This document shows, one piece after another, positions 9,179 to 32,803 of a DNA stretch of 33,679 nt. Under the pieces are notes generated by a model that saw only the letters and a list, made by a program, of their open reading frames with translations, was not told where the DNA came from and ran no database searches. This stretch comes from a virus. The stretch spans positions 1 through 33,679 of IMG/VR virus record IMGVR_UViG_3300028027_000143. One strand, written 5' to 3'. A program made the position numbers and the translations under genes. How positions within the stretch are numbered: the stretch's first letter is position 1; every line of letters begins with the position of its first letter.

Positions 9179-9553
9179 ATGCCAAGCACGAGTAAGAAGC
9201 AACACAATTTCATGGAAGCGGTGGCGCACAATCCATCGTTTGCCAAGAAAGTAGGCGTCCCACAGTCCGTGGGTAAAGATTTTTCAGCGGCTGATAAAGG
9301 CCGTAAATTTGCAAAAGGTGGCGACATGAAACACGAAGATGTAAAAATGGACAAAAAGATGATGCAGAAGGCCGTGAATAAACACGAAGGCCGTCTGCAC
9401 AAAGGCGCAACTATGACCAAGCTGTCTAAAGGTGGCATGGCTGCATCTAAGATGGGTGCTGTTAAAACTGGTAAAACGCCAGATGGTGTTGCTGCCAAAG
9501 GTAAAACCAAAGGCACAATGATTAAGATGAACATGGGCGGCAAAGCCTGTTAA
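9179..9553 (+). CDS. Lys/Gly-rich small protein with ADG-KGKT tail
   Basis: The 124-residue basic protein begins PSTSKKQHNFMEAVAHNPSF and continues AKKVGVPQSVGKDF, a widespread phage motif of unknown function. Its second half is low complexity with FAKGGDMK and LSKGGMAASK. The end (PDGVAAKGKTKG, then TMIKMNMGGKAC) is shared with the proteins encoded at 9565 and 10099. ATG 9176 and ATG 9179 are both possible; the AAGG site at 9169-9172 is three bases from the first and six from the second, favouring 9179. No enzyme motif or membrane segment is visible. Confidence 0.82.
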   Translation: MPSTSKKQHNFMEAVAHNPSFAKKVGVPQSVGKDFSAADKGRKFAKGGDMKHEDVKMDKKMMQKAVNKHEGRLHKGATMTKLSKGGMAASKMGAVKTGKTPDGVAAKGKTKGTMIKMNMGGKAC

Positions 9554-9564
9554 GGAGTTTAAAC
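9551..9564 (+). promoter_or_regulatory. Stop/RBS junction with GTTTAAAC spacer
   Basis: The stop TAA is embedded in the ribosome site (TAAGGAG), and the spacer to the ATG at 9565 is completed by the palindrome GTTTAAAC (9557-9564). The same 14-base junction recurs at 11912-11925. Confidence 0.7.
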
Positions 9565-10089
9565 ATGAGAAGACGTAAATTCCAAATGGGCGGTGACGTA
9601 GATCCAATGGAAGCAGCAAATGCTTCTATGGAATCTCAAGACATTGCCAGATCTATGGCTGCTGGCCCTAAAAATGAAGCTCCTAAAGCAGCACCTAAGA
9701 ACCGTGTTGTTTCCAAAAAAGAATTGGAAGATTCTGGTCTAAGTCTGCGTGATTATTTAAATCGTGAGCGTGGTTTAAAGCGCAGAGCAGAGAAAGATCC
9801 TACTGCTGGTGACTCTCCTGATAAAGCTGCTCAAGAAGCCGCAGATGCAATTGATCCCGGTCGTGATATGAGAACACCTCGCCGCTATAACAGCATTATG
9901 GAAAGATCACCAGAAGATCGTGATGCCATGTTGAAGTTGGGCTTACAGCGTCAAGAAGCCGCTAGAGCCATGAAAGATTTTAAAGCCAAGAAGGCGGCTG
10001 GCATGAAGTCTGGCGGCTCTGTTACTTCTGCTTCTAAACGTGCTGACGGTATTGCCACCAAAGGCAAAACCCGTTGCAAAATTTGTTAA
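9565..10089 (+). CDS. Lys/Ala-rich protein with ADG-KGKT tail ending in Cys
   Basis: The 174-residue protein begins MRRRKFQMGGDVDPMEAANA, with an F-x-M-G-G motif near the start. The middle is charged and helical (VSKKELEDSGLSLRDYLNRE, ERGLKRRAEKDP). The C-terminus has MKSGGSV followed by TSASKRADGIATKGKTRCKI and a final cysteine. The last part is a shortened version of the tail of the neighbouring protein encoded at 10099. The length is unusual for this set of small proteins because of the extra helical middle. Function unknown; it may be a minor virion protein. Confidence 0.82.
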   Translation: MRRRKFQMGGDVDPMEAANASMESQDIARSMAAGPKNEAPKAAPKNRVVSKKELEDSGLSLRDYLNRERGLKRRAEKDPTAGDSPDKAAQEAADAIDPGRDMRTPRRYNSIMERSPEDRDAMLKLGLQRQEAARAMKDFKAKKAAGMKSGGSVTSASKRADGIATKGKTRCKIC

Positions 10090-10098
10090 GGAATTAAT

Positions 10099-10362
10099 AT
10101 GAGTCCAGCAGAAAAAGCAGCTCGGGAAGAAATGGCAGAACGCAAGATGCAAGATGCCACCGAAAAAGCGTATACCAAATCTTTGACAACCACTGAATAT
10201 GCTCCCGCAAAGAAAGACCCACGAGATGCAGTCCGTGGTCAGCGTGGTTATGCTTCTGGCGGTAAAGTCTCTTCCGCATCTAAGCGTGCTGATGGTTGCG
10301 CCACTAAAGGCAAAACTAAAGGCACAATGATCACTATGAAAGGCGGCGGTTACGCCTGCTAA
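10099..10362 (+). CDS. Small basic protein with ADG-KGKT tail ending in Cys
   Basis: The 87-residue protein has a charged helical N-terminus (PAEKAAREEMAERKMQDATE) and the motif YASGGKV at residues 51-57, followed by SSASKRADGCATKGKTKG and TMITMKGGGYAC at the end. The tail from SSASKRADG onward is closely similar to those of the proteins encoded at 9565 and 9179, but the codons differ at synonymous positions. This indicates an old duplication maintained by selection on the protein. A TAAGGA site overlaps the stop of the upstream gene. Function unknown. Confidence 0.82.
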   Translation: MSPAEKAAREEMAERKMQDATEKAYTKSLTTTEYAPAKKDPRDAVRGQRGYASGGKVSSASKRADGCATKGKTKGTMITMKGGGYAC

Positions 10363-10365
10363 ATT

Positions 10366-10599
10366 ATGATGGCAAGCCGTGGAATGGGGGCCATGTCCCC
10401 CAGCAAAATGCCCAAAGGTGTACGTAAAGCACGCCGGGATGACACTGACTTTACGCAGTATGCTGAAGGCGGTAAAGTTGGACTTTACGCCAACATCCAT
10501 GCCAAACGTGCTCGTGGCGAGAAAATGCGCAAACCCGGTCAAAAGGGAGCGCCTACAGCTCAAGCTTTTATTGACTCTGCAAAGACGGCTAAAAAATGA
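10366..10599 (+). CDS. Small basic phage protein (YAEGGKV / KGAPTA family)
   Basis: The 77-residue protein contains QYAEGGKVGLYANIHAKRAR followed by GEKMRKPGQKGAPTAQAFID, and ends SAKTAKK. I recognise this C-terminal pattern from many environmental phage genomes, without a known function. It starts three bases after the previous stop, at an ATGATG (10366 or 10369) with no strong ribosome site of its own, so coupling to the upstream gene is likely. Its stop overlaps the next start by ATGA. The Lys/Arg-rich composition suggests binding to nucleic acid or to an acidic protein surface. Confidence 0.83.
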   Translation: MMASRGMGAMSPSKMPKGVRKARRDDTDFTQYAEGGKVGLYANIHAKRARGEKMRKPGQKGAPTAQAFIDSAKTAKK

Positions 10600-11531
10600 C
10601 CACTACCGGCTCAACCCTCTTCAATATGGACTTCACGGAGATTGCCGAGGAAGCGTGGGAGCGTGCGGGCCGTGAAATGCGTTCTGGTTATGACTTGCGT
10701 ACAGCTCGTCGTTCAATGAACCTGATGACCATTGAGTGGCAGTCTAAAGGTATCAACATGTGGACTATGGAGCAGGGAATCATTAACCTGACTCCGGGTT
10801 TAGCAACATACGCCCTACCAACGGACACAATTGATCTGCTTGAGCATGTCATTCGTACTGGGTCTAACACTGCATCAACACAGGCTGACCTAACAATTAC
10901 ACGTATTAGTGTTTCTACCTATGCCACTATTCCAAACAAGTTACAACAAGCTCGTCCAATTCAAGTGTGGATTCAAAGACTTTCTGGTGAAACCAATCCA
11001 ACAGCTTTGGTTCTTGACGGAGCCATCAATTCCACAGACACAACGATCACGCTTAACTCGGTGGTTGGACTAGCAAACGCTGGTTTTATTCGCCTTGGTA
11101 CAGAAGATATTTACTACACCTATGTCTCTGGTAATACTTTGGGTGGTGTGTTCCGTGGTCAAAATAATACAACTGCCGCCTCTCAAGCCGATGGCACTGC
11201 GGTATTTGTTCCCCAACTTCCAGCTGTAACTGTCTGGCCTACGCCTGATAACTCAACGCCATATCAGTTTGTATACTGGAGACTGCGTCGTGTTCAAGAT
11301 GCTGGCGCTGGTATGGAAACAGCTGACATGAACTTCCGCTTTCTGCCATGTTTGGTAGCGGGCTTGGCGTATCACATTGCCATTAAAGTGCCTGAGCTAA
11401 TGCCACGCATTCCAATGCTTAAGCAGATTTATGATGAAACATTTGACATTGTTGCTGGTGAAGATCGAGAGAAAGCAGCAGTAAGATTTGTACCTAGGCA
11501 GATGTTTATTGGAAGCGGCGGGGGTTACTAA
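10596..11531 (+). CDS. Head-tail connector-type structural protein
   Basis: The 311-residue protein begins with a helical region (DFTEIAEEAWERAGREMRSG, then YDLRTARRSMNLMTIEWQSK) and then INMWTMEQG and TPGLATYALPTDTIDLLEHV, a pattern of podovirus head-tail connector proteins of the P22 gp4 / tail tubular A type. The C-terminal half again is helical (MNFRFLPCLVAGLAYHIAIK, RIPMLKQIYDETFDIVAGED). Residues about 135-208 form a Thr/Asn-rich beta insert (DGAINSTDTTITLNSVVGLA) that splits the domain. It overlaps the upstream gene by ATGA and the downstream gene by TAATG. The connector role is inferred from the fold pattern and position. Confidence 0.75.
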   Translation: MTTTGSTLFNMDFTEIAEEAWERAGREMRSGYDLRTARRSMNLMTIEWQSKGINMWTMEQGIINLTPGLATYALPTDTIDLLEHVIRTGSNTASTQADLTITRISVSTYATIPNKLQQARPIQVWIQRLSGETNPTALVLDGAINSTDTTITLNSVVGLANAGFIRLGTEDIYYTYVSGNTLGGVFRGQNNTTAASQADGTAVFVPQLPAVTVWPTPDNSTPYQFVYWRLRRVQDAGAGMETADMNFRFLPCLVAGLAYHIAIKVPELMPRIPMLKQIYDETFDIVAGEDREKAAVRFVPRQMFIGSGGGY

Positions 11532-11914
11532 TGGGCAATCGTTTTGCATCCGGCAAGAAAGCGATTGCTGAATGTGATCGCTGCGGGCAGCAATTTAGAT
11601 TAAAGCAGCTCAAGACCGAAATCATTAAACAACGCAAGTACGAGTTGTTAGTTTGTTCTGAATGCTGGGATCCAGATCAACCACAATTGATGCTTGGCAC
11701 GTTTCCAGTAGATGATCCACAAGCTCTGCGTAACCCACGCAGAGATACAACTTATGTAACTTCTGGTGTAAACGCAAGCGGGAATTTGTCTGGTGGTTCA
11801 CGAGACATTCAATGGGGTTGGGGGCCTGTAGGCGGAGCTAGTAATTTTGATGCAGGATTAACCCCCAACTACTTGGTGGCAACGACATTTGTTGGTACAG
11901 TTAGCATATCTTAA
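11531..11914 (+). CDS. Zinc-ribbon phage protein
   Basis: The 127-residue protein has two CxxC knuckles, CDRC at residues 16-19 and CSEC near residues 43-46, separated by a basic strand (KQLKTEIIKQRKYELLV). This is a typical zinc ribbon. A linker follows (WDPDQPQLMLGTFPVDDPQA) with a D-P-x-A-L-R-N-P-R-R motif, then a Gly/Asn/Ser-rich tail (GGSRDIQWGWGPVGGASNFD). I know similar proteins as conserved phage hypotheticals next to connector genes. The ATG overlaps the previous stop by one base, so it is probably coupled to the connector gene. A structural or DNA-end-binding role is possible but not shown. Confidence 0.8.
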   Translation: MGNRFASGKKAIAECDRCGQQFRLKQLKTEIIKQRKYELLVCSECWDPDQPQLMLGTFPVDDPQALRNPRRDTTYVTSGVNASGNLSGGSRDIQWGWGPVGGASNFDAGLTPNYLVATTFVGTVSIS

Positions 11915-11925
11915 GGAGTTTAAAC
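11912..11925 (+). promoter_or_regulatory. Stop/RBS junction with GTTTAAAC spacer
   Basis: The 14-base sequence is identical to 9551-9564. The TAA stop of the zinc-ribbon gene is part of TAAGGAG, and GTTTAAAC (11918-11925) fills the gap to the ATG at 11926. Confidence 0.7.
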
Positions 11926-12114
11926 ATGGCATATACACGATCAGCCGATGGCATCGCTAAAAAAGGTAAAACCGAAGGTAAAAACTTAGGTAATAGCGGC
12001 CCTATTCAGAAAGAAACGATGGGCGGTAAAGGCAAGGGCAAAGGCAAAACCAATGCTGACATGAAGTCTATGGGTCGCAACTTGGCAAAAATTGCCGCAC
12101 AGAAACGAGGCTAA
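11926..12114 (+). CDS. Very small Lys/Gly-rich protein with ADG-KGKT motif
   Basis: The 62-residue protein is almost entirely low-complexity and strongly basic. It carries YTRSADGIAKKGKTEGKNLG at its N-terminus, the same ADGxAxKGKT motif that stands at the C-terminus of the proteins encoded at 9179, 9565 and 10099. A GKGKGKGK run and a basic helix (NADMKSMGRNLAKIAAQKRG) follow. No fold can be assigned. It follows a GTTTAAAC-containing ribosome site and lies two bases before the next small gene. Confidence 0.8.
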   Translation: MAYTRSADGIAKKGKTEGKNLGNSGPIQKETMGGKGKGKGKTNADMKSMGRNLAKIAAQKRG

Positions 12115-12116
12115 TC

Positions 12117-12380
12117 ATGGCTACATTTAGCAAAAAAATGATGGGTAAAGAAGTTGGTGATGCGTCTGTGTACGCTAAACCACACACCATGTCCGGCAAA
12201 GCAGTTAAAGCTTCTGCTAATCCCGGCAGTGGCCCAGATCACAGTGATGCATCTACAGTCAATATGTCTGTAGGTAATGTTTCTCGTCGCCCTCAACCAG
12301 CAGCAAAGACCAGCGGCATTAAAATCCGTGGTACAGGTGCAGCTACTAAAGGTGTTATGGCTCGGGGGCCGATGGCGTGA
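12117..12380 (+). CDS. Small basic phage protein (RGTGAATKG tail)
   Basis: The 87-residue protein begins MATFSKKMMGKEVGDASVYA, passes through a Ser/Gly/Pro-rich middle, and ends with KTSGIKIRGTGAATKGVMAR and GPMA. The tail 'IKIRGTGAATKG-x-MARGPMA' is familiar from many environmental phage genomes, without a known role. The A-T-K-G piece weakly resembles the KGKT motifs of the neighbours. It has no cysteine, membrane segment or enzyme motif. Its stop overlaps the GTG start of the GIY-YIG gene, which appears to have been inserted here between this gene and the adaptor gene. Confidence 0.8.
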   Translation: MATFSKKMMGKEVGDASVYAKPHTMSGKAVKASANPGSGPDHSDASTVNMSVGNVSRRPQPAAKTSGIKIRGTGAATKGVMARGPMA

Positions 12381-13066
12381 CAACTGCCAACGACGCAGGA
12401 TATGTGTATTCAATAGAAAATACGGTGAATGGCCACCGTTATATTGGAAGCACTACCAATTACAAATCCAGATGGCAAACCCATCGGAGTACGTTGCGTC
12501 GTGGAAAACACCATTCTTTTATCCTGCAAAAAGCTTGGGATAAATACGGTGAAAAATCATTTGACTTTAAGTTATTGCTGGTTTGCCCAAAAAAGCAGCG
12601 TATTGAATACGAAACTCGTTTGATGTCATTGCAGACATACAACATATTGCGGACTCCGCATGAGGTTTTGGTTCGCGGTGGTTGGTCGCATACGCCTGAA
12701 TTTAAAGCAAAAATGTCTGCACTGCACAAAGGCAAAGTGCTAACGGATGAACACCGAGAAAAATTATCCACGCACCGTAAAGGGCGTATTGAATCACAAG
12801 AGTTTCGGGAAAAAGCTCGGGCGCGTCAGTTAGGCGTATCGCCATCTAACGAAACTAGAAGTAAATTAAGTCAAGCATTAAAAAATTTTCGTTTTGCGGC
12901 AACTGAAGAAACCAAGCGAAAAACAAATTTGATTCACACAGACTGTTTGCTTGGGGGTAAAATTTCAGATGCTTGTGCTAAACACGGGCTATCAACCACC
13001 ACTTTTTATGCGTATTGCAAAAAACTTGCACTGCCCTTGCTAAAGCAAAAAAGGGAAGCAACATGA
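12377..13066 (+). CDS. GIY-YIG homing endonuclease with NUMOD3 motifs
   Basis: The 229-residue protein is a free-standing homing endonuclease, a selfish gene that cuts unoccupied sites in related phages. Residues 8-25 (GYVYSIENTVNGHRYIGS) are the GIY-YIG core with the catalytic Tyr and an Arg. H-x-x-L near HRSTLRRG and a conserved Glu (RIEYETRLM) follow. After the nuclease, HTPEFKAKMSALHKGKVLTD and the following EHREKLS form a NUMOD3 DNA-binding element, with further repeats (SQEFREKARARQLGV, NETRSKLSQALKNF). A helix-turn-helix-like end, KISDACAKHGLSTTTFYAYC, follows. It starts with GTG in a GTGA overlap and ends in an ATGA overlap, so insertion kept translation of both neighbours. Confidence 0.9.
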   Translation: MTTANDAGYVYSIENTVNGHRYIGSTTNYKSRWQTHRSTLRRGKHHSFILQKAWDKYGEKSFDFKLLLVCPKKQRIEYETRLMSLQTYNILRTPHEVLVRGGWSHTPEFKAKMSALHKGKVLTDEHREKLSTHRKGRIESQEFREKARARQLGVSPSNETRSKLSQALKNFRFAATEETKRKTNLIHTDCLLGGKISDACAKHGLSTTTFYAYCKKLALPLLKQKREAT

Positions 13067-13902
13067 CTTATGATGAACTTGTAGTTGCGGTTTCTGATTA
13101 CTGTGAGAATTCATTTCCCACAGTTGATATGAACATCTTCATTAGACAATGTGAGCAAAGGGTATACAACACCGCGCAACCTGCTAACTTGCGAAAGAAT
13201 GTGTCGGGCGTACTAACCACCGGCAACAAATATCTTCAGTGCCCATCAGACTTTTTGTCTGTATATAGCCTGTCCGTATACCCGTACAACACTACAACTG
13301 CTACCGGTACATCTGGTCAGAAAACAATCGTAGTGGCAAGCACTACAGGTATTGCGGCGGGTCAGCAGGTTACGGGTACAGGCATTGGCACTAACGCTCA
13401 AGTGCGTAGTATTGCTGGTACAACCATTACATTGACTGTTGCTAACAGCGGCACGGTGTCAGGCTCTGTTGTGTTCCAAGGCGACTATCTGTATCTGCTA
13501 AACAAAGACGTTAACTTCATCCGTGAAGCGTATCCTTTGTCTGCGTTTGCATCTGAGCCTAAGCACTACGCCATTTTTGGCCCTCGGTCAGACGATGTGA
13601 ATGAGTTGACGTTCATTGTTGGCCCAACGCCAAGTTCAGCCTATTACGCAGAGTTGCATTATTACTACTATCCCGAATCTATCGTCACCGCCGGAACTAC
13701 TTGGCTAGGTGATAACTTTGATTCTGTGCTGCTGTACGGCACAATCTGCGAAGCGCTTGTGTACATGAAGGGCGAAGGCGACATGGTTAAACTGGCGCAA
13801 GATCGCTACGTTCAAGCCATTGCTCTGTATAAAAACCTCTCAGACGGCAAACAAAGAGCCGATGCGTACCGAGATGGTCAAGTTAGGGTTGCTGTTTCAT
13901 GA
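13063..13902 (+). CDS. Phage adaptor protein (SU10-type head-tail adaptor)
   Basis: The 279-residue protein is the adaptor that links portal to tail in SU10-like podoviruses. Recognisable segments are the N-terminal MTYDELVVAVSDYCENSFPT, VDMNIFIRQCEQRVYNTAQP, LTTGNKYLQCPSDFLSVYSL, LLNKDVNFIREAYP, NELTFIVGPTPSSAYYAELH, and WLGDNFDSVLLYGTICEALV. A Gly/Thr-rich beta insert sits at residues about 78-130 (SGQKTIVVASTTGIAAGQQV), unlike the compact form. The start is ATG 13063, in an ATGA overlap with the endonuclease stop, with AGGGA upstream. A start further upstream is inside the endonuclease gene and is not supported. Confidence 0.85.
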   Translation: MTYDELVVAVSDYCENSFPTVDMNIFIRQCEQRVYNTAQPANLRKNVSGVLTTGNKYLQCPSDFLSVYSLSVYPYNTTTATGTSGQKTIVVASTTGIAAGQQVTGTGIGTNAQVRSIAGTTITLTVANSGTVSGSVVFQGDYLYLLNKDVNFIREAYPLSAFASEPKHYAIFGPRSDDVNELTFIVGPTPSSAYYAELHYYYYPESIVTAGTTWLGDNFDSVLLYGTICEALVYMKGEGDMVKLAQDRYVQAIALYKNLSDGKQRADAYRDGQVRVAVS

Positions 13903-14315
13903 GTTACATCCTACAAACCCAAACGACCAGCTTCAAGAAGGAGTTGTACACGGGCGTTCACGATCTATCTACGGATGTTTTGTACATCGCCCTGTACACC
14001 GCCAATGCAAATTTAAACGAAGCAACTACCGTTTACACGACTGCCGCAGAAGTTACCGGTGGTGGTTATGTAGCCGGTGGCGTAGTCTTGACGGGCGTGA
14101 CGATTAACTCGTCTGGGTATACAGCCTATGTAGACTTTGCTGATGTGGTGTTTAACGCATCGGTGACAGCCCGTTGTGCTTTGATTTACAACGTGACTCA
14201 AGGTAATAAATCTATTGCCGTGTTGGACTTTGGCTCTGACAAAACATCTACCAATTTCACAATCACAATGCCTTCTAATACAGCAACGGCAGCGTTGATT
14301 CGTTCTTCTAATTAA
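13899..14315 (+). CDS. Conserved phage virion protein (beta-rich)
   Basis: The 138-residue protein belongs to a family common next to SU10-type adaptors. It begins MSYILQTQTTSFKKELYTGV and continues HDLSTDVLYIALYTANANLN, then EATTVYTTAAEVTGGGYVAG. The remaining strands (TAYVDFADVVFNASVTARCA, SIAVLDFGSDKTS) complete a compact beta fold. The ATGA overlap with the adaptor gene suggests co-translation. It probably sits in the tail or neck, but no experimental role is known to me for this family. Confidence 0.82.
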   Translation: MSYILQTQTTSFKKELYTGVHDLSTDVLYIALYTANANLNEATTVYTTAAEVTGGGYVAGGVVLTGVTINSSGYTAYVDFADVVFNASVTARCALIYNVTQGNKSIAVLDFGSDKTSTNFTITMPSNTATAALIRSSN

Positions 14316-14324
14316 GGAGTCAAT

Positions 14325-14903
14325 ATGACCACAGAAAAACTTAAAGTAACTGACCAAATGTCGAGTGGTCTTATTGCAGGCACTCAGTCTGGCGAACAAG
14401 CCAAAGCAACAGGTGTTTACCATGTTGAATGCCGTGATAAAGATGGTAACTTGAAGTGGTCTGCTGACACCAAGAACTTAGTTGTTAACGCTGGTTTGGC
14501 TTACATGGCCGGTACTGCTCTGACTTCCGTGGCCCAGATTACCACTTGGTACATTGGCTTGTACGGTGCTGGTGCTTCTAATACGCCTGCCGCTACAGAC
14601 ACAATGTCTTCCCACATTGGCTGGACTGAAGTTACGGCTTACAGTAATGCAACCCGTGTAGCGGCTACGTTTGTAACAGCAACGACTGCGAACCCTTCTG
14701 TGGTGACTAACTCTGCTTCTCCAGCTGTTTTCAACATCAACGGCACAACAACTGTGGGTGGAGCGTTCTTGACCAGCGGTAGTGCTAAAGGCGGTACGAC
14801 TGGTACGCTGTTCTCTGCGGCTGACTTCTCTTCGCCCGGTGATCGCTCGGTGGTTTCCGGGGACATCATCTCTGTAACCTATACGTTCAGTTTAGCTGCT
14901 TGA
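14325..14903 (+). CDS. Conserved phage structural protein
   Basis: The 192-residue protein has a distinct N-terminal arm (TGVYHVECRDKDGNLKWSAD, then TKNLVVNAGLAYMAG), which I recognise as a recurrent phage structural pattern. The rest is Thr/Ala/Ser-rich beta sequence with TWYIGLYGAG, SHIGWTEVTAYSNATRVAAT and a final SVVSGDIISVTYTFSLAA, consistent with a jelly-roll-like virion protein. It follows the 13899 gene after a TAAGGAG junction and is followed by the tandem-repeat gene. It may be a fibre-adaptor or tail surface protein. Confidence 0.78.
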   Translation: MTTEKLKVTDQMSSGLIAGTQSGEQAKATGVYHVECRDKDGNLKWSADTKNLVVNAGLAYMAGTALTSVAQITTWYIGLYGAGASNTPAATDTMSSHIGWTEVTAYSNATRVAATFVTATTANPSVVTNSASPAVFNINGTTTVGGAFLTSGSAKGGTTGTLFSAADFSSPGDRSVVSGDIISVTYTFSLAA

Positions 14904-14910
14904 GGTCTAA

Positions 14911-15759
14911 ATGGCTGAAGGCGGCTGGGGTTCTGGCACATGGGGTCAGGCTGGCTGGGGTGATTCAGTCTATGACCGGAGTGTTGCTGAAACTGCGACA
15001 GGGACAGATGCTGTCTCTACGGCCATATCAGTTCCATCTAGTGTCAGTGAAACAGCTACGGGATCGGATGCTGTATCCAGTCTAATTCAGGTTAATTCTG
15101 CGGTCAGTGAGACAAGTACTGGGTCTGATGCCATTAGTGCGTTGGCGACATTTGGTGCTTCGGTCAGTGAGTCTGGCACGGGCAGTGATTCAATAAGTGC
15201 GATTCCCACATACGGGGTGTCGGTCAGTGAGACATCTACTGGGTCAGATTCAGCGCAGGCGTTTGCTAACTTCTTGGGTCAAATCCTTGAGACAGCGACT
15301 GGCACGGATGCAACGAGTTCAGCGTTCACGTTCTTGGTTTATATTGTCGAGAGCGCAACGGGCACGGATGTAGTATCGAGCAGTTTGGCTATTGGCTCAG
15401 AAATTAGTGAGTCAGCAACGGGCAGTGATGCTTTATCTGCTAGTGTTACATTGCCAGCCAGTGTGTCAGAAGCGGCGACTGGTGCGGATGTAAATGTGGC
15501 GCTGGCAAGCTTCTTTTCTTCCGTGGTTGAGTTAGCGACAATCTCGGATGTATTACTTGGCAGGCCGTTATGGGAAATTATTGATGACGTACAGAATGCT
15601 GACTGGGGCGGGATTACAAATACGCAGACTGCTGGGTGGCAAAATGTTAATGACACACAATCAATAAACTGGCAAAATATTAACAATACTCAGTCTTCTG
15701 GCTGGGCAAATGTTGATGATACCCAGAGTGCTGGGTGGACACCAATCGACACGAATTAG
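14911..15759 (+). CDS. Tandem-repeat fibre-like protein
   Basis: The 282-residue protein is built of three parts. Residues 5-17 form a Trp/Gly-rich head (GWGSGTWGQAGWG). Residues 24-223 contain about ten copies of a 20-residue unit with the pattern S-V-S-E-T-A-T-G-S-D-A-V-S, with variation in the last third of each. Residues 229-282 contain five copies of an 11-residue unit, W-x-N-V-x-D-T-Q-S-x-G. The regularity suggests a fibrous trimer or repeated beta-turn rod. The gene lies between a structural gene and the S74 tail fibre, so a fibre or fibre-linker role is likely. No enzymatic motif is visible. Confidence 0.8.
   Translation: MAEGGWGSGTWGQAGWGDSVYDRSVAETATGTDAVSTAISVPSSVSETATGSDAVSSLIQVNSAVSETSTGSDAISALATFGASVSESGTGSDSISAIPTYGVSVSETSTGSDSAQAFANFLGQILETATGTDATSSAFTFLVYIVESATGTDVVSSSLAIGSEISESATGSDALSASVTLPASVSEAATGADVNVALASFFSSVVELATISDVLLGRPLWEIIDDVQNADWGGITNTQTAGWQNVNDTQSINWQNINNTQSSGWANVDDTQSAGWTPIDTN
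14980..15577 (+). repeat. Ten copies of a 60-base coding repeat
   Basis: The unit encodes 20 residues around E-T-A-T-G-[ST]-D-A-[VI]-S. Copies differ at many synonymous positions, so this is not a recent slippage expansion. Confidence 0.88.
15595..15756 (+). repeat. Five copies of a 33-base coding repeat
   Basis: The unit encodes 11 residues, [ST]-A-G-W-x-N-[VI]-x-D-T-Q. It forms the C-terminal end of the tandem-repeat protein and ends with GWTPIDTN. Confidence 0.88.
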
Positions 15760-15769
15760 GAGCTTTTAA

Positions 15770-18190: not shown

Positions 18191-18211
18191 TTAACCCCCG
18201 AAAGGAAAATC

Positions 18212-18743: not shown

Positions 18744-18745
18744 AC

Positions 18746-19075: not shown

Positions 19076-19087
19076 GTTAACGGGAAA

Positions 19088-24374: not shown

Positions 24375-25036
24375 TTGTTACCTCCGTATATGAGCTTAAT
24401 CAGGTTGCCGCGCCCAACTTGCCGTTGGCTCCTGTCCAGTACAACGCTCAATACATAGATCAACTTAACAATGTCTTGCGTTTGTATTTCAACAGACTAG
24501 ATGCCATTCTTGCCCAGCTACGAACTAGCGATGATGTTGATCCCGCAAACATTAATTTTCCCAATGGTTTGTTCTTTAACACCGCAGACCAGACGTTGGC
24601 GGCTGTAGACACAGGCTATCCCATCACGTTTAACCAGACATACCTGAATAACTTTGTGGCACTACAGTCTGGCAGTACGTCAAAGATTGAAGTGACTGTT
24701 GGTGGCGTGTATAACTTTCAGTTGTCGGCCCAGTTAAAAAGCACCAATTCATCAGCCAAAGACGTACAAATTTGGATTAAGCGTGGGACAACAACAATTG
24801 GTTATTCATCTCATAGGTATACGGTTGAAGGCTCAGACAACCACATGAATGTTAACTGGATCTTTGACATTGATTTAGCGGCTAATGAATACATTGAGAT
24901 GTACTGGGGCGCAGATGATACAAACGTGACGATGGAGGCAATACCCGCATCTGCTCCATATCCTGCTGTTGCTTCAGCGGTAATGGCTGTAAACTTTGTT
25001 GCGCGGTTACCAGATCCACGCCCAACGCCTCCTTAA
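24371..25036 (+). CDS. Conserved phage virion protein, jelly-roll type
   Basis: The 221-residue protein begins MIVTSVYELNQVAAPNLPLA and has a helical N-terminal segment (QYIDQLNNVLRLYFNRLDAI) that could dock it on the virion. The C-terminal half is a beta jelly roll like those of TNF/C1q-like phage proteins (EVTVGGVYNFQLSAQLKSTN, KDVQIWIKRGTTTIGYSSHR, NVNWIFDIDLAANEYIEMYW). It ends in a Pro-rich tail. It overlaps the nozzle gene by ATGA. It is likely a tail or collar attachment protein that may bind sugars, but the function is inferred. Confidence 0.78.
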   Translation: MIVTSVYELNQVAAPNLPLAPVQYNAQYIDQLNNVLRLYFNRLDAILAQLRTSDDVDPANINFPNGLFFNTADQTLAAVDTGYPITFNQTYLNNFVALQSGSTSKIEVTVGGVYNFQLSAQLKSTNSSAKDVQIWIKRGTTTIGYSSHRYTVEGSDNHMNVNWIFDIDLAANEYIEMYWGADDTNVTMEAIPASAPYPAVASAVMAVNFVARLPDPRPTPP

Positions 25037-25045
25037 GGTTTAAAC
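25034..25045 (+). promoter_or_regulatory. Stop/RBS junction with GTTTAAAC spacer
   Basis: TAAGG (with the stop TAA at 25034-25036) runs directly into GTTTAAAC (25038-25045), which ends at the ATG at 25046. This is a third ribosome-site junction carrying the palindrome, shorter than the other two. Confidence 0.65.
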
Positions 25046-28000
25046 ATGGCTATTCAAAGAGATTTTTTGCAAAGCATATACGAAGACGCTGATAGTTTTG
25101 GTGAGGATGCTCTGTATCAAAACGAGATGTTGGCTAACATCATTAACCCGCCTATGCCGGTTGTTAAGCCTGCGCCACAGTTAATTGCACCAACGCCCCA
25201 GCCAGTCGCACCCGATGTTGTTCAGCAGCTCTTTGCATCCCAACCAGCTACCCCTGCTACCCTGCCAACGCCACCTACTGTTGATCCTGTAATGAAGGAT
25301 ATATTTGGTGAGTCAGACTTAGAAGTTACTAAATTTACGCAGCCTTCTAAGCAGCCAACTGTTGCTCCCGCAAGTCCTACTGTAGCGCCAACTACGCCTT
25401 CTCCTGCTGCACCTACTACGCCTATTGCACCAAAAGTTGATTACACAAGCGCATTAACCAAGCAAATTTTAGGTCAAGGTATTACTGACAAATGGTCTGG
25501 CGCAGGCCATGGCTCCGCAGAAGCTAACGCCGCAGACATGGCTAAGATTCTTGCTGGGATTGGGATTACCGATATCAAGCAGTTTGGCAAAGTACCTCGG
25601 TATGAACAAGCCGAAGTAAAAATGGGTTTTAACGGCCAGTTAGCTAACCAAGATGCTGATGGTAATTACTACATTACAGTACCCGGGGGTACTGATTCTG
25701 AAGGCAATCAAATAATGGTTCCTCAGTATCTTAATCAATCTCAGCTAAAACCTGTGTACGGCACGTACTCACAGCCAATGGGTATGGATGAGAATCCTCA
25801 ATTTGTACCAATTGACCCAACGTTAGTCATTGAAAAAGATGGCGTCCCAATGATTAAAACTGGCGAGACTTTTGGCAACAAAGCCACTGGTCAAGCAGTT
25901 CCCAATACATACACTGAACGCCAAACGGGTAACTTTTTTGGTGGAACTTATGAGGGTAAAGGCAACACCGGTTACGGTGTTCAGTTTGATGCGCAAGGCA
26001 ATCCGTACTTTTATACGCAAGGTGCGTCTAGTAGTGACATGGATAAAATTGCACCGCTGTTATCAATTGCTTCTTTTGTTCCCGGCTTAGCTCCTTTTGC
26101 TCAAGGTTTAAACGCTTTAATTGCAGTCAAGCAAGGAAATTTATTAGGAGCAGCGCTTAGCACTCTTGGTGCTGCTGGCGGGGCAGGGTTTACAGACTTT
26201 GCTGGAATCCCAATTGGTGATGCCAAAAACATTCTTGGCGGTATAAATGCGCTTCAAACAGGCAACGTTGCAGGACTTATTAACTCTGCGGCTGGGTATG
26301 CTGGGGCTAGTTTACCCTCTGAATTTGGCACTGGCGTAAAGGTACTTAACGCTGCAAATGCGTACTCCAAAGGAGACTATGCGGGGCTTCTTGATGCGGC
26401 TAGTTCATTGACGGGTAGTAGTGACGCAAAGCTTGCGGCATCTGCTCTTCGTCTTACCAACGCAGTTAATAGCGGTAATCCTGCGGCTCTTCTTAGCGCG
26501 GCTCAAGCCTTTGGCTCTATAGTTAATACAGCCTCCGCAGATCCAAAACTTGCATTAGGTTTTGGCCCCGGTGATATGGATGATTTTAATGCCAGCTTAA
26601 TCCCCGGCTATTTCCAACCGGGCGGTGAGGGCTACATCCCTCCAGAAGAAGAAGAAAATCCAACCACGGTTCAACAACAACCAGCTGGGTTGGATGATTT
26701 CCTTAGCCAGCTTGAACAGTTTAAACAGAGCGCAGTTACACCCGATGACATTCAAGAAATTATTAGCGGGCAAAACTTTGCCACACCTGAAGACATTCAG
26801 AATGCAATTAGCAACATCCCCGCTGGTTTAACAGAAGAAGACCTTGTTAAGAGTCTTGGCACAACCAAAGAAGACCTTCTTACGCAACTAGGTACTACAG
26901 AAGAAGAAATGCAGCAACGTATTGCTGATTTGGAATCTGAATTTGGCGGGCAACTTACTGGTGCTACTCAAGGTTTGGAGTCTAAGATTGCGGGAACTCA
27001 AGACAGCGTAGATGCGCTTGCTGAAAGCCTAGGAACTACCAAAGATGATTTGCTTAACGAGCTTGGTATTACCGAAGAAGGTTTACAGCAAAGGATTGCT
27101 GATCTTGAGTCTGAATTTGGTGGGCAGCTTACCGAGTCTACTAAAGGCTTAGAGTCCAAACTTGCTGAAACACAGACCGGTGTTGATGAACTTGCAGAAA
27201 GTCTTGGCACAACACGAGAAGACTTGCTTGACCAATTGGGTGTGACGGAAGACGAGATTAACCAGCGTATTGCCGATCTTGAGTCCGAGTTTGGTGGTAG
27301 TTTTAAAGACATTGAGAGTAGCCTTGGTAAAACGCGAGAAGAATTGCTGTCCGAATTTGGCGTTACAGAAGACGAAATTAACCAGCGCATTGCGGACTTA
27401 GAAGCTGAGTTTGGCGGTAACTTTGGTGATATTGAGAGCAGCCTTGAAAAAACAAGGGAAGATTTACTTGCTGAATTTGGGTTGTCGGAAGAAGAAATGC
27501 AGCAACGGATTGCAGATTTAGAAACTACGTTTGGCGGTAATCTGGAAGATATTGAAAGCAGTCTTGGCAAGACACGGGAAGAGCTACTAGCTGAGTTTGG
27601 CGTTACAGAAGACGAGATTAACCAAAGAATTGCAGACTTAGAAACTGAGTTTGGTGGTAATTTTGAAGATATTGAAGGTAGTCTTGAAAAGACAAGAGAA
27701 GAGCTACTAGCTGAGTTTGGTTTATCCGAAGAAGAGATGGCTCAACGAATTGCGGATTTGGAAACTGAGTTTGGTGGACAGCTTACATCTGGACTGGGCA
27801 AACAGTCTGCGGAGACTAAGGCGCTATTCCAGAACCTTTTGAACCAACAACAATCCCAAGCTGCTGCACTTGCTAAATCTCAAGCAGCCGCAGCCGCTAA
27901 AGCAAAAGCAGATGCAGTGGCAAGAGCGCAGTCTGAAGCAGCTTCCAGTAAAAACAACCAGCTGCAAGCGCTGTTGGCAATGATGAGTAGCAATAATGAA

Positions 28001-28093
28001 GTTGCTAAGATAAAATCCTACAAAGATCTTTTTGGGGAAGACTTGTTTGGGACGGATATTGATTTAACCCCCGTTGGCGGTGAAGCCGAATAA
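25046..28093 (+). CDS. Large internal-virion-type protein with coiled-coil repeats
   Basis: The 1015-residue protein has several zones. Residues 30-130 are Pro/Ala/Thr-rich linker. Residues 130-330 are a mixed region with GYGVQFDAQGNPYFYTQGAS. Residues 340-530 are Ala/Gly/Leu-rich with weak hydrophobic helices (IASFVPGLAPFAQGLNALIA, NLLGAALSTLGAAGGAGF), suggesting membrane insertion. Residues 603-911 carry seven units ending in Q-R-I-A-D-L-E-x-E-F-G-G. The tail is a Gln/Ala-rich helix and the acidic end DLFGTDIDLTPVGGEAE. There is no recognisable enzyme domain. Location after the tail genes and the amphipathic, repeated build suggest a protein ejected into the cell, but this is inference. Confidence 0.78.
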   Translation: MAIQRDFLQSIYEDADSFGEDALYQNEMLANIINPPMPVVKPAPQLIAPTPQPVAPDVVQQLFASQPATPATLPTPPTVDPVMKDIFGESDLEVTKFTQPSKQPTVAPASPTVAPTTPSPAAPTTPIAPKVDYTSALTKQILGQGITDKWSGAGHGSAEANAADMAKILAGIGITDIKQFGKVPRYEQAEVKMGFNGQLANQDADGNYYITVPGGTDSEGNQIMVPQYLNQSQLKPVYGTYSQPMGMDENPQFVPIDPTLVIEKDGVPMIKTGETFGNKATGQAVPNTYTERQTGNFFGGTYEGKGNTGYGVQFDAQGNPYFYTQGASSSDMDKIAPLLSIASFVPGLAPFAQGLNALIAVKQGNLLGAALSTLGAAGGAGFTDFAGIPIGDAKNILGGINALQTGNVAGLINSAAGYAGASLPSEFGTGVKVLNAANAYSKGDYAGLLDAASSLTGSSDAKLAASALRLTNAVNSGNPAALLSAAQAFGSIVNTASADPKLALGFGPGDMDDFNASLIPGYFQPGGEGYIPPEEEENPTTVQQQPAGLDDFLSQLEQFKQSAVTPDDIQEIISGQNFATPEDIQNAISNIPAGLTEEDLVKSLGTTKEDLLTQLGTTEEEMQQRIADLESEFGGQLTGATQGLESKIAGTQDSVDALAESLGTTKDDLLNELGITEEGLQQRIADLESEFGGQLTESTKGLESKLAETQTGVDELAESLGTTREDLLDQLGVTEDEINQRIADLESEFGGSFKDIESSLGKTREELLSEFGVTEDEINQRIADLEAEFGGNFGDIESSLEKTREDLLAEFGLSEEEMQQRIADLETTFGGNLEDIESSLGKTREELLAEFGVTEDEINQRIADLETEFGGNFEDIEGSLEKTREELLAEFGLSEEEMAQRIADLETEFGGQLTSGLGKQSAETKALFQNLLNQQQSQAAALAKSQAAAAAKAKADAVARAQSEAASSKNNQLQALLAMMSSNNEVAKIKSYKDLFGEDLFGTDIDLTPVGGEAE
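26852..27778 (+). repeat. Seven coding repeats of 58 or 40 residues
   Basis: The conserved end of each unit is Q-R-I-A-D-L-E-[SAT]-x-F-G-G. From the first arginine of that motif (26918) the steps are 58, 58, 40, 40, 40 and 40 residues, ending at 27746. The unit ends alternate between E-D-E-I-N-Q and E-E-E-M-x-Q in part of the array. Confidence 0.9.
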
Positions 28094-28104
28094 AGGAAAT
28101 AATT

Positions 28105-31023
28105 ATGGGATACTACGTCGGCCCTGATGAAGATGGCAACTACTCATACGTAGATGATGATGAGCCAACATATTCAAATCTTGATCCTTATGACATTCCT
28201 GTAACGCCATCTTTCCCCGGCATTACGGATTATGGCGGTGGCGATTACGGCGAATATTTAGTTGGTGATGGTGGCGCAGGGACTTCTTACACAGTAAACC
28301 CAGACGGCACAATTACCGTTAACAGCGGCACTGGTGGCTATACACCCCGTAGTGCAAGTGAGCCAAACTCTGGTATTACAGATGCCCTTAATAAACTGCT
28401 TGGCACAGCTTATAGCGGGAAACAATTAGCAGCATTAGCAGGTGTTTTTGGTGGCGGTGTTGCAGGTTTGACCGGTGCTTTGAACCCCAAAGCAAACAAA
28501 GTTGGCTACCAAGGTGGCATTCCTAAGTATGACGCAGTACGTAACATGGTCACTGCGCCAGATCCAAACCGTCGCCCCGGTTCTGGTGGCACTCGCTATG
28601 GTGGTGATGTATCTTTTGTGCCTAAAGGTTCTTCACCTATTGGTGGCGGTCTTGCTTCTTTAATAGGTGGTGGTCTTACTGGCGGTACTGCTCCAGTGGC
28701 TTCAGCTCCCGCAGCACCACAGATTCCTCAAAAACCGGTAGCACAAGACGATCCGTTTTATAAATCGCCTGAGTACAAAGCGTACTTAAATGATCCGTCA
28801 AATATGTATGCTACTGCCGATATGTACGACTCCCCGTACTTTGGGCGAATGAGTTCTGGGTCAGTGGGTGGTGCTATGGATAGGGCGTATGAGCAGTACA
28901 AAGGTATTGCGCCACAACAAAATATTGCAGCAATGTTTAATCGTTTAAATTCTGAGCCAATGAACGAGAATCAAACTTTTGCAAAAGGTGGTTCAACTGG
29001 TCGTTATTTACAAGGTGAAACTGACGGTATGGCCGACAAAATCCCCGCTCAAATTGGTGAAGACCAACCAGCCGCCCTTAGCCATGGTGAGTTTGTTGTT
29101 CCTGCGGATGTTGTTTCCCATCTAGGCAATGGTAATTCTGATGCCGGTGCTAAGAAACTGTACAGCATGATGGACAAGATCCGTCAGGCTCGTACCGGCA
29201 CAAAGAAGCAAGGCAAGAAAATCAACGCAGATAAGTTTATGCCCGGTGGTTTAGCTCAAGGTTATGCCAAAGGTGGATTAACTGACGACTACTTTAGTGT
29301 GCTTGAAGAGCGAGACTTGTCAAACCCAAGATACCGTGAGTACTTGGCAAAACAGCAAGGTCTTGAGGGGAGTCACCCAGAGATGTTTGCCGCACCCATT
29401 GCACGAGGCTTAGGTTCATTGGCTAAGACAGCAAGGGGCATGCTTGCACCGCCAAAACGGCCACAGGCATGGGTTGAAAACGGCCCAGTCCCCGGCTCTG
29501 TACTTCAAAATCCAATCGGCGCTCCAGTTCCAGAACTTACTGCCGCCGACCTTGAAAGATTCCTAAAAGCTGCACGTTCACCACAACACCTTGCAAAACA
29601 GCAAAAACATTTTTCAGATCGATTGCCCCAAATTGCTGAACGAAATCTTATGCAGAATTCCCCAAGGAATTTATACAACGCTTTTGTGGAAGCGCGGGAT
29701 ATTCGTGATTTGATGGATGAGCGTCAAAAATCTAGTGGAATGGCTGCTGGCGGTGCTGTTGCAAGTTTTGCCGCTGGTGGTACAACTCCTACAGCCGCTA
29801 CAGCCGCTTCTGCTGGCGTCACCGGTACAGAGCAAGCCCCATCAAGCTGGGCTGGCGACTACATTACCAACATGCTAGGTAAAGGTCAGGCTTTGGCTGA
29901 AGCCCCATATCAAGAATATGGTGGCCCATTAACAGCAGGCGCTTCTCCTTTGCAACAACAAGCGTTTGGTACTGCGGCTAACTTATCAGTTCCCGGTAGC
30001 GTAGGCACTGCCGCTCAAACTGCTGGAGATATCGCCAGTAAAGCGCAAGGCATGGCGTACACCCCTGCGCAGTTTACAAATCAGTTTAATGCGCCTACGG
30101 CTGGTACGGCTACCAACTTTACCAATCAATTCCAAGCCCCCAATCAGTATCAAAACACTGCGTTTACATCAGGCACATTTGGTGGAGATCAAGCCCAGCA
30201 GTACATGAATCCGTACTTGCAGACATCGCTTAACCCGCAGTTGGCTGAAGCACGTCGTCAAGCAGATATTACTGAGCAGCAAAACAAAGCTGCAATGACC
30301 AAGGCTGGTGCGTTTGGTGGTGGTCGTCAGGCTATCTTGACCGCAGAAGGTCAGCGTAACCTTGGCACTAACCTAGCCAACATCACTGGTAAGGGCTACG
30401 ACACTGCGTATCAAAACGCTATGGCTCAGTACAACGCTGACCAAGCCCGTAATATGCAGGCGCAACAAGCATCTGAGCAATCTAAACAGTTTGGCGCTCA
30501 GCAGGGCATGTCTGCGGCTCAGATGATGGCTCAGTATGGCATGTCTGCACAGCAAGCTCAGGAAGCTGCACGTCAGTTCCAACAACAGCAAGCCATGACT
30601 GGCGCTCAGTCTGCTGCTCAATTTGGTCAATCCGCACAAACAGCCGCAGAACAATCCAGACAGTTTGGTGCTACGCAAGGTTTGGCTGGTCTTAACACCG
30701 CTCTCCAAGCGGCTCAGACTCAAGGCAACTTGGGCATATCTAGCGGTGATCTTGGTTTGCGTCAGTTGCAACAACAGGTTGGATTAGGCGCTGTACAACG
30801 TGGTATTGAGTCTGAAGGCATCGCAGCTGATAAAGCAGCGTTTGAAGAAGCTAGGGCAAATCCTTATAAGATGCTTCAGTTCCAGCAGTCTTTGCTCCAA
30901 GGTTTGCCAATCACTGCAACAAACTACAACTTATCTCAGCCAAACTTTTTGGAGTCTGCCGCTGGTGGTGCAACAACTGTAGCAAAATTGCTTGATACGC
31001 TGGGCCTTGGCGTGAAATCGTAA
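28105..31023 (+). CDS. Large internal-virion-type protein with phage 'GETDG/SHGEFVVPADVV' module
   Basis: The 972-residue protein begins with an acidic Tyr/Gly/Asp-rich part (GYYVGPDEDGNYSYVDDDEP) and a Gly-rich linker. At residues 290-370 lies a module I know from many phage proteins: FAKGGSTGRYLQGETDGMAD, KIPAQIGEDQPAALSHGEFV, VPADVVSHLGNGNSDAGAKK and LYSMMDKIRQARTGTKKQGK. The second half is Gln/Ala-rich helix (MSAAQMMAQYGMSAQQAQEA) with the frequent phage motif EQQNKAAMTKAGAFGGGRQA. The end is hydrophobic (ATTVAKLLDTLGLGVKS). Membrane insertion or ejection is likely; enzymatic function is not visible. It has four [F/Y]-A-x-G-G motifs or close variants. Confidence 0.78.
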   Translation: MGYYVGPDEDGNYSYVDDDEPTYSNLDPYDIPVTPSFPGITDYGGGDYGEYLVGDGGAGTSYTVNPDGTITVNSGTGGYTPRSASEPNSGITDALNKLLGTAYSGKQLAALAGVFGGGVAGLTGALNPKANKVGYQGGIPKYDAVRNMVTAPDPNRRPGSGGTRYGGDVSFVPKGSSPIGGGLASLIGGGLTGGTAPVASAPAAPQIPQKPVAQDDPFYKSPEYKAYLNDPSNMYATADMYDSPYFGRMSSGSVGGAMDRAYEQYKGIAPQQNIAAMFNRLNSEPMNENQTFAKGGSTGRYLQGETDGMADKIPAQIGEDQPAALSHGEFVVPADVVSHLGNGNSDAGAKKLYSMMDKIRQARTGTKKQGKKINADKFMPGGLAQGYAKGGLTDDYFSVLEERDLSNPRYREYLAKQQGLEGSHPEMFAAPIARGLGSLAKTARGMLAPPKRPQAWVENGPVPGSVLQNPIGAPVPELTAADLERFLKAARSPQHLAKQQKHFSDRLPQIAERNLMQNSPRNLYNAFVEARDIRDLMDERQKSSGMAAGGAVASFAAGGTTPTAATAASAGVTGTEQAPSSWAGDYITNMLGKGQALAEAPYQEYGGPLTAGASPLQQQAFGTAANLSVPGSVGTAAQTAGDIASKAQGMAYTPAQFTNQFNAPTAGTATNFTNQFQAPNQYQNTAFTSGTFGGDQAQQYMNPYLQTSLNPQLAEARRQADITEQQNKAAMTKAGAFGGGRQAILTAEGQRNLGTNLANITGKGYDTAYQNAMAQYNADQARNMQAQQASEQSKQFGAQQGMSAAQMMAQYGMSAQQAQEAARQFQQQQAMTGAQSAAQFGQSAQTAAEQSRQFGATQGLAGLNTALQAAQTQGNLGISSGDLGLRQLQQQVGLGAVQRGIESEGIAADKAAFEEARANPYKMLQFQQSLLQGLPITATNYNLSQPNFLESAAGGATTVAKLLDTLGLGVKS

Positions 31024-31036
31024 AGAGGATATTTAA

Positions 31037-32803
31037 ATGTTTACACCTACACCAGTCAATAAGATTGCAGCTGCATATTTGGGCAATCCTCAGCCCTTGG
31101 CTCAGAAAGTTGAGAAAGACAAACAACAAAATGGTGGGATCCCACGGGATCTGCGCCAGTTGCTTGCTTTAAACGACATCACCCAAGGCCGTAATGCTGC
31201 GGGTATTCAACAAGCATTGCAAACTCCAACAGACATGCCGACTGTTGCTCAAAGCTTACAAGAGCGTGCCCGTCAAGCTATCCAAGCGCAGATGATGCAA
31301 CAGGCTCAACAGCAACAACGTAAAGAAGGACTGCCTATGGCTGTCCCTCCAAACGCACCACGCCCTCCCATGCAGGCGCAGGGCATTGACAACCTACCAA
31401 CTAACATAGGTGAAGGTTATGCTGGTGGTGGAATTATTGGGTTTACCAATGGTGGCAACATTCCATCGTCAGGAGAATTGTCTGGTTTTAGTGGGCCAAC
31501 TCCGGAGGAAGAAGCCAAAGCAGAACTTCGGGCAGCCGAGCAAGAGCGCGTTAAAAAACTGGTTGAGTTAAAACAAAAAGCTGATTTCTTAAAATCTGCT
31601 GGCGCTCCACAAGCCAAAGAAGTAGAAATGCAGTTGCAGGCGCTAAAAGATGATATGCGGCCAAAGCCATCCCCAACCGATCCTAATTTCCGTCGTCAAC
31701 CAGACCCACGTATGACTGGTACTCCAGCAGTATCGTCTTCAGTGCCTTTTGTTACTTCCGGAGATCGTCCACCTTCTGCAAACGTTAATGCTTCTGCCGC
31801 TAGAGATAGCGCTCCTATGCCTGCTGGCTTGACTGATTTGGCAAAGCTTCCATCAGTTGGTGTTGGTCGTGACTTCCTGCAAAGATCACTTGCTGATAAT
31901 CAAAAGTTTGATGAAGAAGCGTTTAAACAGAAGTACTTAAAAGAAGTTGGCGCAAAAGACACGTCCATTTACGATGAAATGGCGTCAGAGCTTAAAGCCC
32001 GTAAGGAACGTTTAAACGCTCCTAAACAGGGTTACGAAGCATTGATGGAGTACTTGGGTCAAATAGCGCAAGCTGGTGGCCGTAACTGGGCGCAGTCTGG
32101 AGCTATTGGTGCGGCTAGAGTTGGTGCTCTACAGAAAGAACGCCAGACTCAACAAGATGCATTGATGGAAAAAATTCTCGATCTTGGCGCTAAGAAGAAA
32201 GAAGCTCAGTACGGCGAACGTCTTGGCATGTTCACTCTTACTAAAACCGAGAAAGACAGAATTAATAAAGAAAGCGCAGAGATTGCTAAGGCTCTTAACT
32301 TGTCTGAGGATAAGGCTGAGGAACTGCGTCAGAACAGATTGCTTGAAGAAGCCAAGATGAAGAACCAGCTTAAGGTTGCTGGCATGGGCGCTCAAGACAA
32401 TCTCATGAACCGTGCCGCAGCTATCAGGGCTGAAAACAAAGGCATGTCTGTTGAGGAGTCAATCAAACGTGCGGCGTTGGCTGGCGGTGCAGCTTCTGTG
32501 GAAGGCACTGACGCACGCAAGAGCAAAGCTTACATTGACGCTAAGAATAAAATTGATGAGCGTTTCCAGCATTTAATGAGCGACACTCCTTATGGCAAAA
32601 AGCAAAAAGAGTTGTATGACAAAGCTATTATCGACTTGGATAAAACATTTGGCATAAGCGGTGGTGGTATAAACACACTGCCTTCCGCAGCCAAGCCGAT
32701 CCCAGCCGGAGCAGGGCCAAGTGATTTAAACGTTGGAACTGTTTATCAAACTGCCAGAGGCCCAGCAAAATGGAATGGTAAAGCATTTGAACCAGTGCAA
32801 TAA
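31037..32803 (+). CDS. Helical internal-virion-type protein
   Basis: The 588-residue protein is rich in Ala, Gln, Lys and Glu and mainly helical. The N-terminus (PTPVNKIAAAYLGNPQPLAQ, then RDLRQLLALNDITQGRNAAG) leads into a Gln-rich stretch. IGEGYAGGGIIGFTNGG at residues about 122-138 has two glycine-pair motifs like those in the neighbouring proteins. Long coiled-coil segments follow (residues 160-210 and 330-500; PKQGYEALMEYLGQIAQAGG is conserved among such proteins). The C-terminus (NVGTVYQTARGPAKWNGKAF) resembles a short surface strand pair. It is packed between two other large proteins of this type, and an ejection role is inferred. Confidence 0.78.
   Translation: MFTPTPVNKIAAAYLGNPQPLAQKVEKDKQQNGGIPRDLRQLLALNDITQGRNAAGIQQALQTPTDMPTVAQSLQERARQAIQAQMMQQAQQQQRKEGLPMAVPPNAPRPPMQAQGIDNLPTNIGEGYAGGGIIGFTNGGNIPSSGELSGFSGPTPEEEAKAELRAAEQERVKKLVELKQKADFLKSAGAPQAKEVEMQLQALKDDMRPKPSPTDPNFRRQPDPRMTGTPAVSSSVPFVTSGDRPPSANVNASAARDSAPMPAGLTDLAKLPSVGVGRDFLQRSLADNQKFDEEAFKQKYLKEVGAKDTSIYDEMASELKARKERLNAPKQGYEALMEYLGQIAQAGGRNWAQSGAIGAARVGALQKERQTQQDALMEKILDLGAKKKEAQYGERLGMFTLTKTEKDRINKESAEIAKALNLSEDKAEELRQNRLLEEAKMKNQLKVAGMGAQDNLMNRAAAIRAENKGMSVEESIKRAALAGGAASVEGTDARKSKAYIDAKNKIDERFQHLMSDTPYGKKQKELYDKAIIDLDKTFGISGGGINTLPSAAKPIPAGAGPSDLNVGTVYQTARGPAKWNGKAFEPVQ

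Follow-up and report, generated by a model that had tools for sequence, protein, structure and literature searches.

A short aromatic-Ala-x-Gly-Gly element of phage virion proteins borders a module related to siphophage tape-measure proteins

Organization of the locus

The window, by which is meant the whole stretch of DNA analysed, is a 33.7 kb virus record from a freshwater phage. Its genes run in the order TerL, portal, scaffold-like, capsid, small basic open reading frames (ORFs), tail proteins, lysozyme, holin-like and large late proteins, where the scaffold-like and holin-like labels come from a reading of the translations and the gene order. Relatives of the capsid and portal are annotated as P22/Pam1-like and occur with adaptor, stabilisation and DNA-transfer proteins; the window phage is probably short-tailed. 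An aromatic residue, Ala, any residue and two Gly ([FY]A.GG) had been predicted to form a motif shared by small basic proteins and large internal proteins, and every motif string listed in that prediction is present in the window. All of the features described below lie on the plus strand.

Among the small basic ORFs near the capsid gene, ORF 8670 (C-terminus ..RAWNC, 8898..8915) is the first of four to end in Cys. ORF 9176 (9176..9553, 125 amino acids, PHROG 16759/22033/25121; the gene originally placed at 9179) carries FAKGGDM at residue 45 (9308..9328), the loose form LSKGGMA (9422..9442) and altogether several [hydrophobic]xxGG sites. In ORF 9565, the loose form FQMGGDV lies near the N-terminus (9580..9600) and MKSGGSV-TSASK-RADGIATKGKTRCKIC makes up the C-terminal module (10003..10086), which in relatives reads YASGGxVSSASRRADGIATKGKTRCKIC. 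The C-terminal module of ORF 10099 is YASGGKV-SSASK-RADGCATKGKTKGTMI...YAC (10249..10359), and ORF 10366 has YAEGGKV (10459..10479) flanked by an RRDDTDFTQ segment and a GLYANIHAKR module.

Turning to the large late proteins, ORF 25046 (25046-28093) contains FQPGGEG (26612..26632), the relatives having GYFAPGGEGYI at this site; many coiled-coil-like repeats of about 30 residues (TREELLAEFGLSEEEMQQRIADLESEFGG) are also found in this protein. In ORF 28105, FAKGGST (28978..28998) and YAKGGLT (29263..29283) form the upstream and downstream borders of a GEFV module (GRYLQG..DGMADKIPA..AALSHGEFVVPADVVSHLG..KFMPGG, 28999..29250) that is homologous, by profile comparison, to a cassette of siphophage tape-measure proteins (TMPs). 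Tandem copies follow in MAAGGAVASFAAGGTT (29740..29787, with MAAGG at 29740 and FAAGG at 29767) and, within ORF 31037, in YAGGGIIGFTNGGNI (31418..31462, with YAGGG at 31418 and FTNGG at 31442). The last of these is present as listed, but it lacks the Ala of the pattern.

Beyond composition, the motif-bearing proteins had been described as having nothing else in common, which is incorrect. An ADGIAxKGKTxG module is common to ORFs 9176, 9565, 10099 and 11926, where it appears as ADGIAxKGKTxG(x)M at 9482-9523, 10039-10086, 10285-10332 and 11941-11979; the copy in ORF 11926, SADGIAKKGKTEG (11941..11979), is without FAxGG. The neighbours 8670, 9176, 9565 and 10099 are the only window proteins with a C-terminal Cys (window 8670-10362), and two of the copies in ORF 28105 form the borders of the GEFV module. 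A C-terminal Cys is also found in the homologues of these four proteins in most of ten relatives, and it could possibly represent a crosslink or metal site.

Several of the small modules are known from other phages. The N-terminal domain of ORF 9176 (43 residues, window 9176-9310; phrog_16759) is 77% identical in a tblastn search to PHIKZ165.1 of phage phiKZ, and it also starts annotated virion structural proteins of the jumbo phages CBB and 121Q. Apart from this shared domain, phiKZ and the window phage are very different. ORF 8670 belongs to phrog_4689 and the C-terminal module of ORF 10366 is phrog_16028, which is widespread among cyanophages and pelagiphages. Elsewhere, phrog_16759, phrog_16028 and phrog_4689 occur either without FAxGG or fused into large structural proteins. 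Since the translated counterparts of the small basic modules in phiKZ, CBB, 121Q and P-GSP1 lack FAxGG, motif and modules are separable. No match to the tail of ORF 10099 was found among cultured phages by tblastn. The small basic proteins presumably sit in the virion.

Enrichment of the motif in virion proteins

In the window, [FY]A.GG occurs seven times against 0.69 expected from within-protein shuffles, a count reached in 0 of 2000 shuffles, and the expectation rises to 1.26 when GG pairs are preserved (again 0 of 2000). The control patterns A[FY].GG, [FY].AGG, GG.A[FY], [LIV]A.GG and [KRDE]A.GG occur in the window at chance frequency. As the pattern was set after inspecting the window, independent data were needed. 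ORFs 9176 and 28105 served to find 160 related viral loci, and the ORFs called in these and the window (161 loci) were reduced to 421 non-redundant representatives. Among these proteins [FY]A.GG is found 66 times with 12.1 expected, so that the motif is enriched over composition-matched shuffles across related phages. A hold-out set was then formed by removing Gly-rich proteins and the homologues of seven window proteins, six of them with the motif and 25046 and 9565 in a loose form. In this set the extended pattern [FY][AS].GG.[VIM] is seen 13 times against 1.28 expected. In ten relatives of 60-67 kb, the late block of virion genes holds 32 copies of the same pattern (1.7 expected), while the other 462 proteins of these relatives hold none.

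We give practically no credence to the view that the motif merely reflects the composition of low-complexity proteins rich in Gly and Ala: while some raw counts (YAGGGGGG) do stem from Gly-rich collagen-like fibre proteins, the enrichment withstands shuffled, GG-preserving, permuted and reversed controls and the exclusion of Gly-rich proteins. Collectively, [F/Y]-[A/S]-x-G-G-x-[V/I/M] is a genuine and specific short peptide element of virion proteins. It behaves as a short linear motif, recurring in unrelated proteins above the level set by composition and having both fixed and free positions.

Conservation and sequence contexts

Alignments of four families define these positions. The aromatic residue and both Gly are nearly fixed in the 9176, 10366 and 31037 families, Ala is favoured, with Ser in its place in the 9176 family, the third position is under little constraint, and V, I or M is common two residues past the GG. 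In the 9176 family, 72 of the 77 aligned sequences retain F and 70 retain each G, and S often replaces the A (FSKGGDM). The 10366 family has G35, G36 and Y/F in 66/66 and V in 65/66. In the 31037 family, Y128 is found in 38 of 48 sequences (Y or F in 43), G131 and G132 in 47 each, I or V at 133-134 and F136 in 47/48; the motif 5-mer ranks 27th of 584 by conservation. The 10099 family loosens the aromatic to Y/M/F/L and keeps the GG invariant.

The motif is found in six or more sequence contexts that are unrelated to one another. Besides the GEFV borders of ORF 28105 and GYFAPGGEGYI in the 25046 relatives, they include FSKGGDM (9176 family), YASGGxVSSASKRADG (9565/10099), RRDDTDFTQYAEGGKV (10366 family), SNVGExYAEGGII[AG]F (31037 family) and FAKGGLIDLLRRR, which closes small proteins of the relatives with FAxGG-LVDLLRRR. 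The window copies differ in their wobble codons and thus are not recent DNA duplications.

The GEFV module and the tape-measure cassette

In ORF 28105, residues ~292-391 are organized as FAKGG-[GRYLQG.TDGMADKIPA..AALSHGEFVVPADVVSHLG..KFMPGG]-LAQG-YAKGG. The GEFV core is almost invariant in relatives. In the variable flanks the A and GG persist and x is free, and the motif lies downstream of the core in 70/74 homologues and upstream in 50/74, counts that admit [FYM] and a few residues other than Ala. The module gives weak tblastn matches to annotated TMPs. A profile-profile comparison (hhalign) with the TMP cassette returns a probability of 97.3 and an E-value of 2.4e-11, and single-sequence comparisons with lambda give E ~2e-4. 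On the strength of these alignments, the GEFV module is homologous to the siphophage tape-measure "hook" cassette.

The same motif-core-motif layout is found in lambda gpH (FATGG-FTGTGGKYEPAGIVHRGEFVFTKEATSRIGVGNLYRLMRG-YATGG, with the motifs at 733-737 and 778-782) and in the TMP of Rhodococcus phage GuyFagieri, and the cassettes of these two were used to gather additional TMPs for a set of 27 non-redundant TMP ORFs. Within a cassette window of 115 residues, [FY][AS].GG occurs at 13.2 per 1000 residues versus 0.17 elsewhere (about 80-fold), or 41 motifs against 1.0 in shuffled sequence. The two sides of the cassette have an [FY]A.GG border in 21/27 and 17/27 TMPs, and V stands at +7 in 32 of 45 motif copies. 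In several TMPs and in HMO-2011 gp49, the motif is missing from one or both sides of the GEFV core.

The siphophage cassettes compared are those of JBD30 gp46 (~1014-1089), Douge gp16 (956-1027 and 1408-1473) and lambda gpH (733-782). As in ORF 28105, a core of the form (TSDSIPA.LS)GEFV..A..V...G is flanked on one side or on both by [FY]A.GG, with V at +7 after the aromatic. The 28105 core differs in being longer, with an additional NGNSDAGAKKLYxMMDKIRxARTG..INPDKFMPGG, and in lying in the middle of a protein that is not a tail-tube tape measure, in a phage that is probably short-tailed, unlike the siphophage carriers. A further difference is that the window group has the motif in other proteins too, away from the hook. 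A candidate assignment of ORF 28105 as a whole tape-measure protein was rejected, as it comes without the TMP domains and tail-tube gene set and carries the TMP-type cassette only; the whole protein has no Pfam or PHROG TMP match.

The TMP-cassette profile matches the PDB chains 8zdo_S and 8rk3_A, corresponding to mycobacteriophage Douge gp16 (two copies) and JBD30 gp46, and the 28105 module, searched against the PDB as a profile, gave no significant match; Pfam has no family for the GEFV/TMP cassette. The resolved parts of these TMPs lie outside the cassette, being 1658-1699 in Douge (PMC13033339), the last 33 residues in JBD30 and 818-849 in lambda gpH (PMC10721106). In JBD30, residues 930-1021 are predicted to be unstructured and precede a predicted hook of two helices and a β-hairpin at 1022-1066 (PMC11445458), which places FASGG at their junction. 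The authors of that study speculate that the hook anchors the TMP in the baseplate once its C-terminus is released (PMC11445458). AlphaFold2 models of the 28105 module and the TMP cassette reach a pLDDT of only 56 and 53, with low-confidence helices after the GEFV segment, and hence no structural claim is built on them. Low model confidence around the motif fits a segment that would become ordered only upon binding, and is not proof of one. The TMP cassette is already present in known proteins and its hook had been predicted before. Within the open-access literature, no paper was found that names the motif or prints TSDSIPA/SNGEFVM, and no record was found of the TMP cassette in podovirus-type ejection proteins.

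Two observations concern the end of lambda gpH. Its terminal sequence, MRDGGLFSGGGR, loosely resembles the C-terminal FAKGGLIDLLRRR of the relatives' small proteins, and gpH has been modelled up to residue 849 in the tail tip beside gpI (PMC10721106).

Ejection proteins and packaged proteins of other phages

The position of the large late genes after the stabilisation protein matches that of the podovirus ejection proteins (P22 gp7/gp20/gp16, T7 gp14/gp15/gp16), and a downstream gene in the relative DSL-LC04 is annotated as a DNA transfer protein. A universal ejection signal was considered and rejected. The motif is absent from P22 gp7/gp20/gp16 and from T7 gp13-gp15, one FSTGG is found in T7 gp16, and the T7-like HTVC168P has no plausible late-gene copy. 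The motif is therefore a trait of some phage lineages. In Pelagibacter phage HTVC027P, several late proteins carry a looser [FY]xxGGx[VI] without the Ala (YKVGGRV, YKKGGSV, FRKGGNV, FDVGGIV and FNEGGRV).

The internal proteins of T4 carry N-terminal cargo-loading or capsid-targeting signals that are cut by the prohead protease. Like the window motif, these are short signals on otherwise unrelated packaged proteins. The window copies, however, are internal and repeated, and no prohead protease was found with them.

Possible roles of the motif

From gene order and the annotation of relatives, the motif-bearing proteins would be luminal and ejected, and the motif probably serves for attachment or as a hinge in proteins that exit the particle when the phage infects. 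The reading we tentatively favour, at a little under an even chance, is that virion proteins which are stored and later ejected use it to dock or to be anchored. While stored in the head and the ejection channel, they would hold a common phage-encoded partner through the motif during assembly and let go of it upon ejection. In ORF 28105 the motif forms both borders of the GEFV module homologous to the TMP hook cassette, and the same element, single or in tandem, recurs in the large 31037- and 25046-type proteins, in the small proteins ending in FAxGG-LVDLLRRR and in the small basic proteins beside the capsid gene. The relation to the TMP hook points to anchoring as its possible role within the ejection apparatus.

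A short docking segment would fit the recurrence of the motif in late proteins that are otherwise unrelated, its mixture of fixed and free positions and its frequent placement in low-complexity flanks. The original prediction had proposed docking to one common partner. A shared functional element agrees with the enrichment, the confinement to virion genes and the retained aromatic and GG, while the binding of a single putative partner is something we infer. A bolder version, which we consider rather unlikely, is a docking code [FY]AxGGx[VI] by which many otherwise unrelated virion proteins of one phage group, and siphophage TMPs, attach to one site of the portal or ejection channel; its users would include very large ejected proteins as well as small, multivalent basic proteins with a terminal Cys. 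If true, the same attachment chemistry would operate in short- and long-tailed phages.

The main rival, possible though less probable than docking, is an intramolecular role in which the motif forms a strand-turn or flexible hinge at module edges and has no separate partner. The aromatic would pack, the Gly-Gly would turn and x-V would follow, which the hook and its neighbours would need in order to fold or to pass through the channel. The placement of the motif exactly at the GEFV cassette borders in TMPs and ORF 28105 speaks for such a role, as do the JBD30 FASGG at the predicted unstructured/hook junction (PMC11445458) and the tandem copies 8-9 residues apart (YAGGGIIGFTNGG, FARGGLVRGFASGG), which look like a repeated turn. 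Against it, the motif is also found in proteins without a GEFV module, including about 8-16 residues from a C-terminus (FAKGGLIDLLRRR), and the aromatic and Ala are constrained beyond the needs of a plain hinge.

Module reuse by recombination is improbable as the whole explanation. Here the motif would ride on short modules (the ADGIAxKGKTxG tail, GLYANI and the hook) and its recurrence would reflect common descent. The copies in ORFs 9565 and 10099 do lie in the same C-terminal module, and very different phages have the 9176 N-terminal and 10366 C-terminal modules on their own or as parts of fusions. The six or more unrelated contexts argue the other way, as do the modules that occur without the motif (phiKZ, CBB, 121Q and P-GSP1), the enrichment that survives removal of homologues, the differing codons and the 31037 alignment, which suggests that the motif is kept under purifying selection outside the modules.

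The idea that the motif is a processing signal, at which a prohead or host protease cuts behind Gly-Gly, had also been put forward and is now disfavoured; we rate it very improbable. GG is a plausible cleavage site, the TMPs of T5 and lambda undergo processing in morphogenesis (PMC10038345), and the N-terminus of P22 gp7 is recorded as removed by a host protease. Co-occurrence with a prohead protease gene, which had been suggested as a check, was not borne out. Searches in which the positive control matched found Peptidase_S78 (PF04586) in 0/18 relatives and a Clp-type protease (PF00574) in 0/10; Peptidase_S77 (PF03420) was found in 0/10 as well, but its control was silent too. In TMPs, the known or predicted cuts come after Arg and not at GG, namely R1127 in T5 (PMC10038345) and, by prediction, R1066 in JBD30 (PMC11445458). 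Motif copies are often internal and multiple, such that cutting at each would split ORF 28105 into four, and conservation runs on beyond the GG (x-V).

The ejection and tape-measure proteins of phages are difficult to annotate, and few of their assembly signals are known. As a mark of late virion proteins that also brackets a module shared by siphophage TMPs and a podovirus-type ejection protein, the motif offers a way to test how these proteins are kept in the particle and released from it, and it can be used to flag uncharacterised virion proteins of environmental phages. A truncated large late protein at the end of the window (32824-33678) has an N-terminal repeated peptide, FSFEEAFNAPK / FSFQEAVKQP, which is possibly another short repeated signal.
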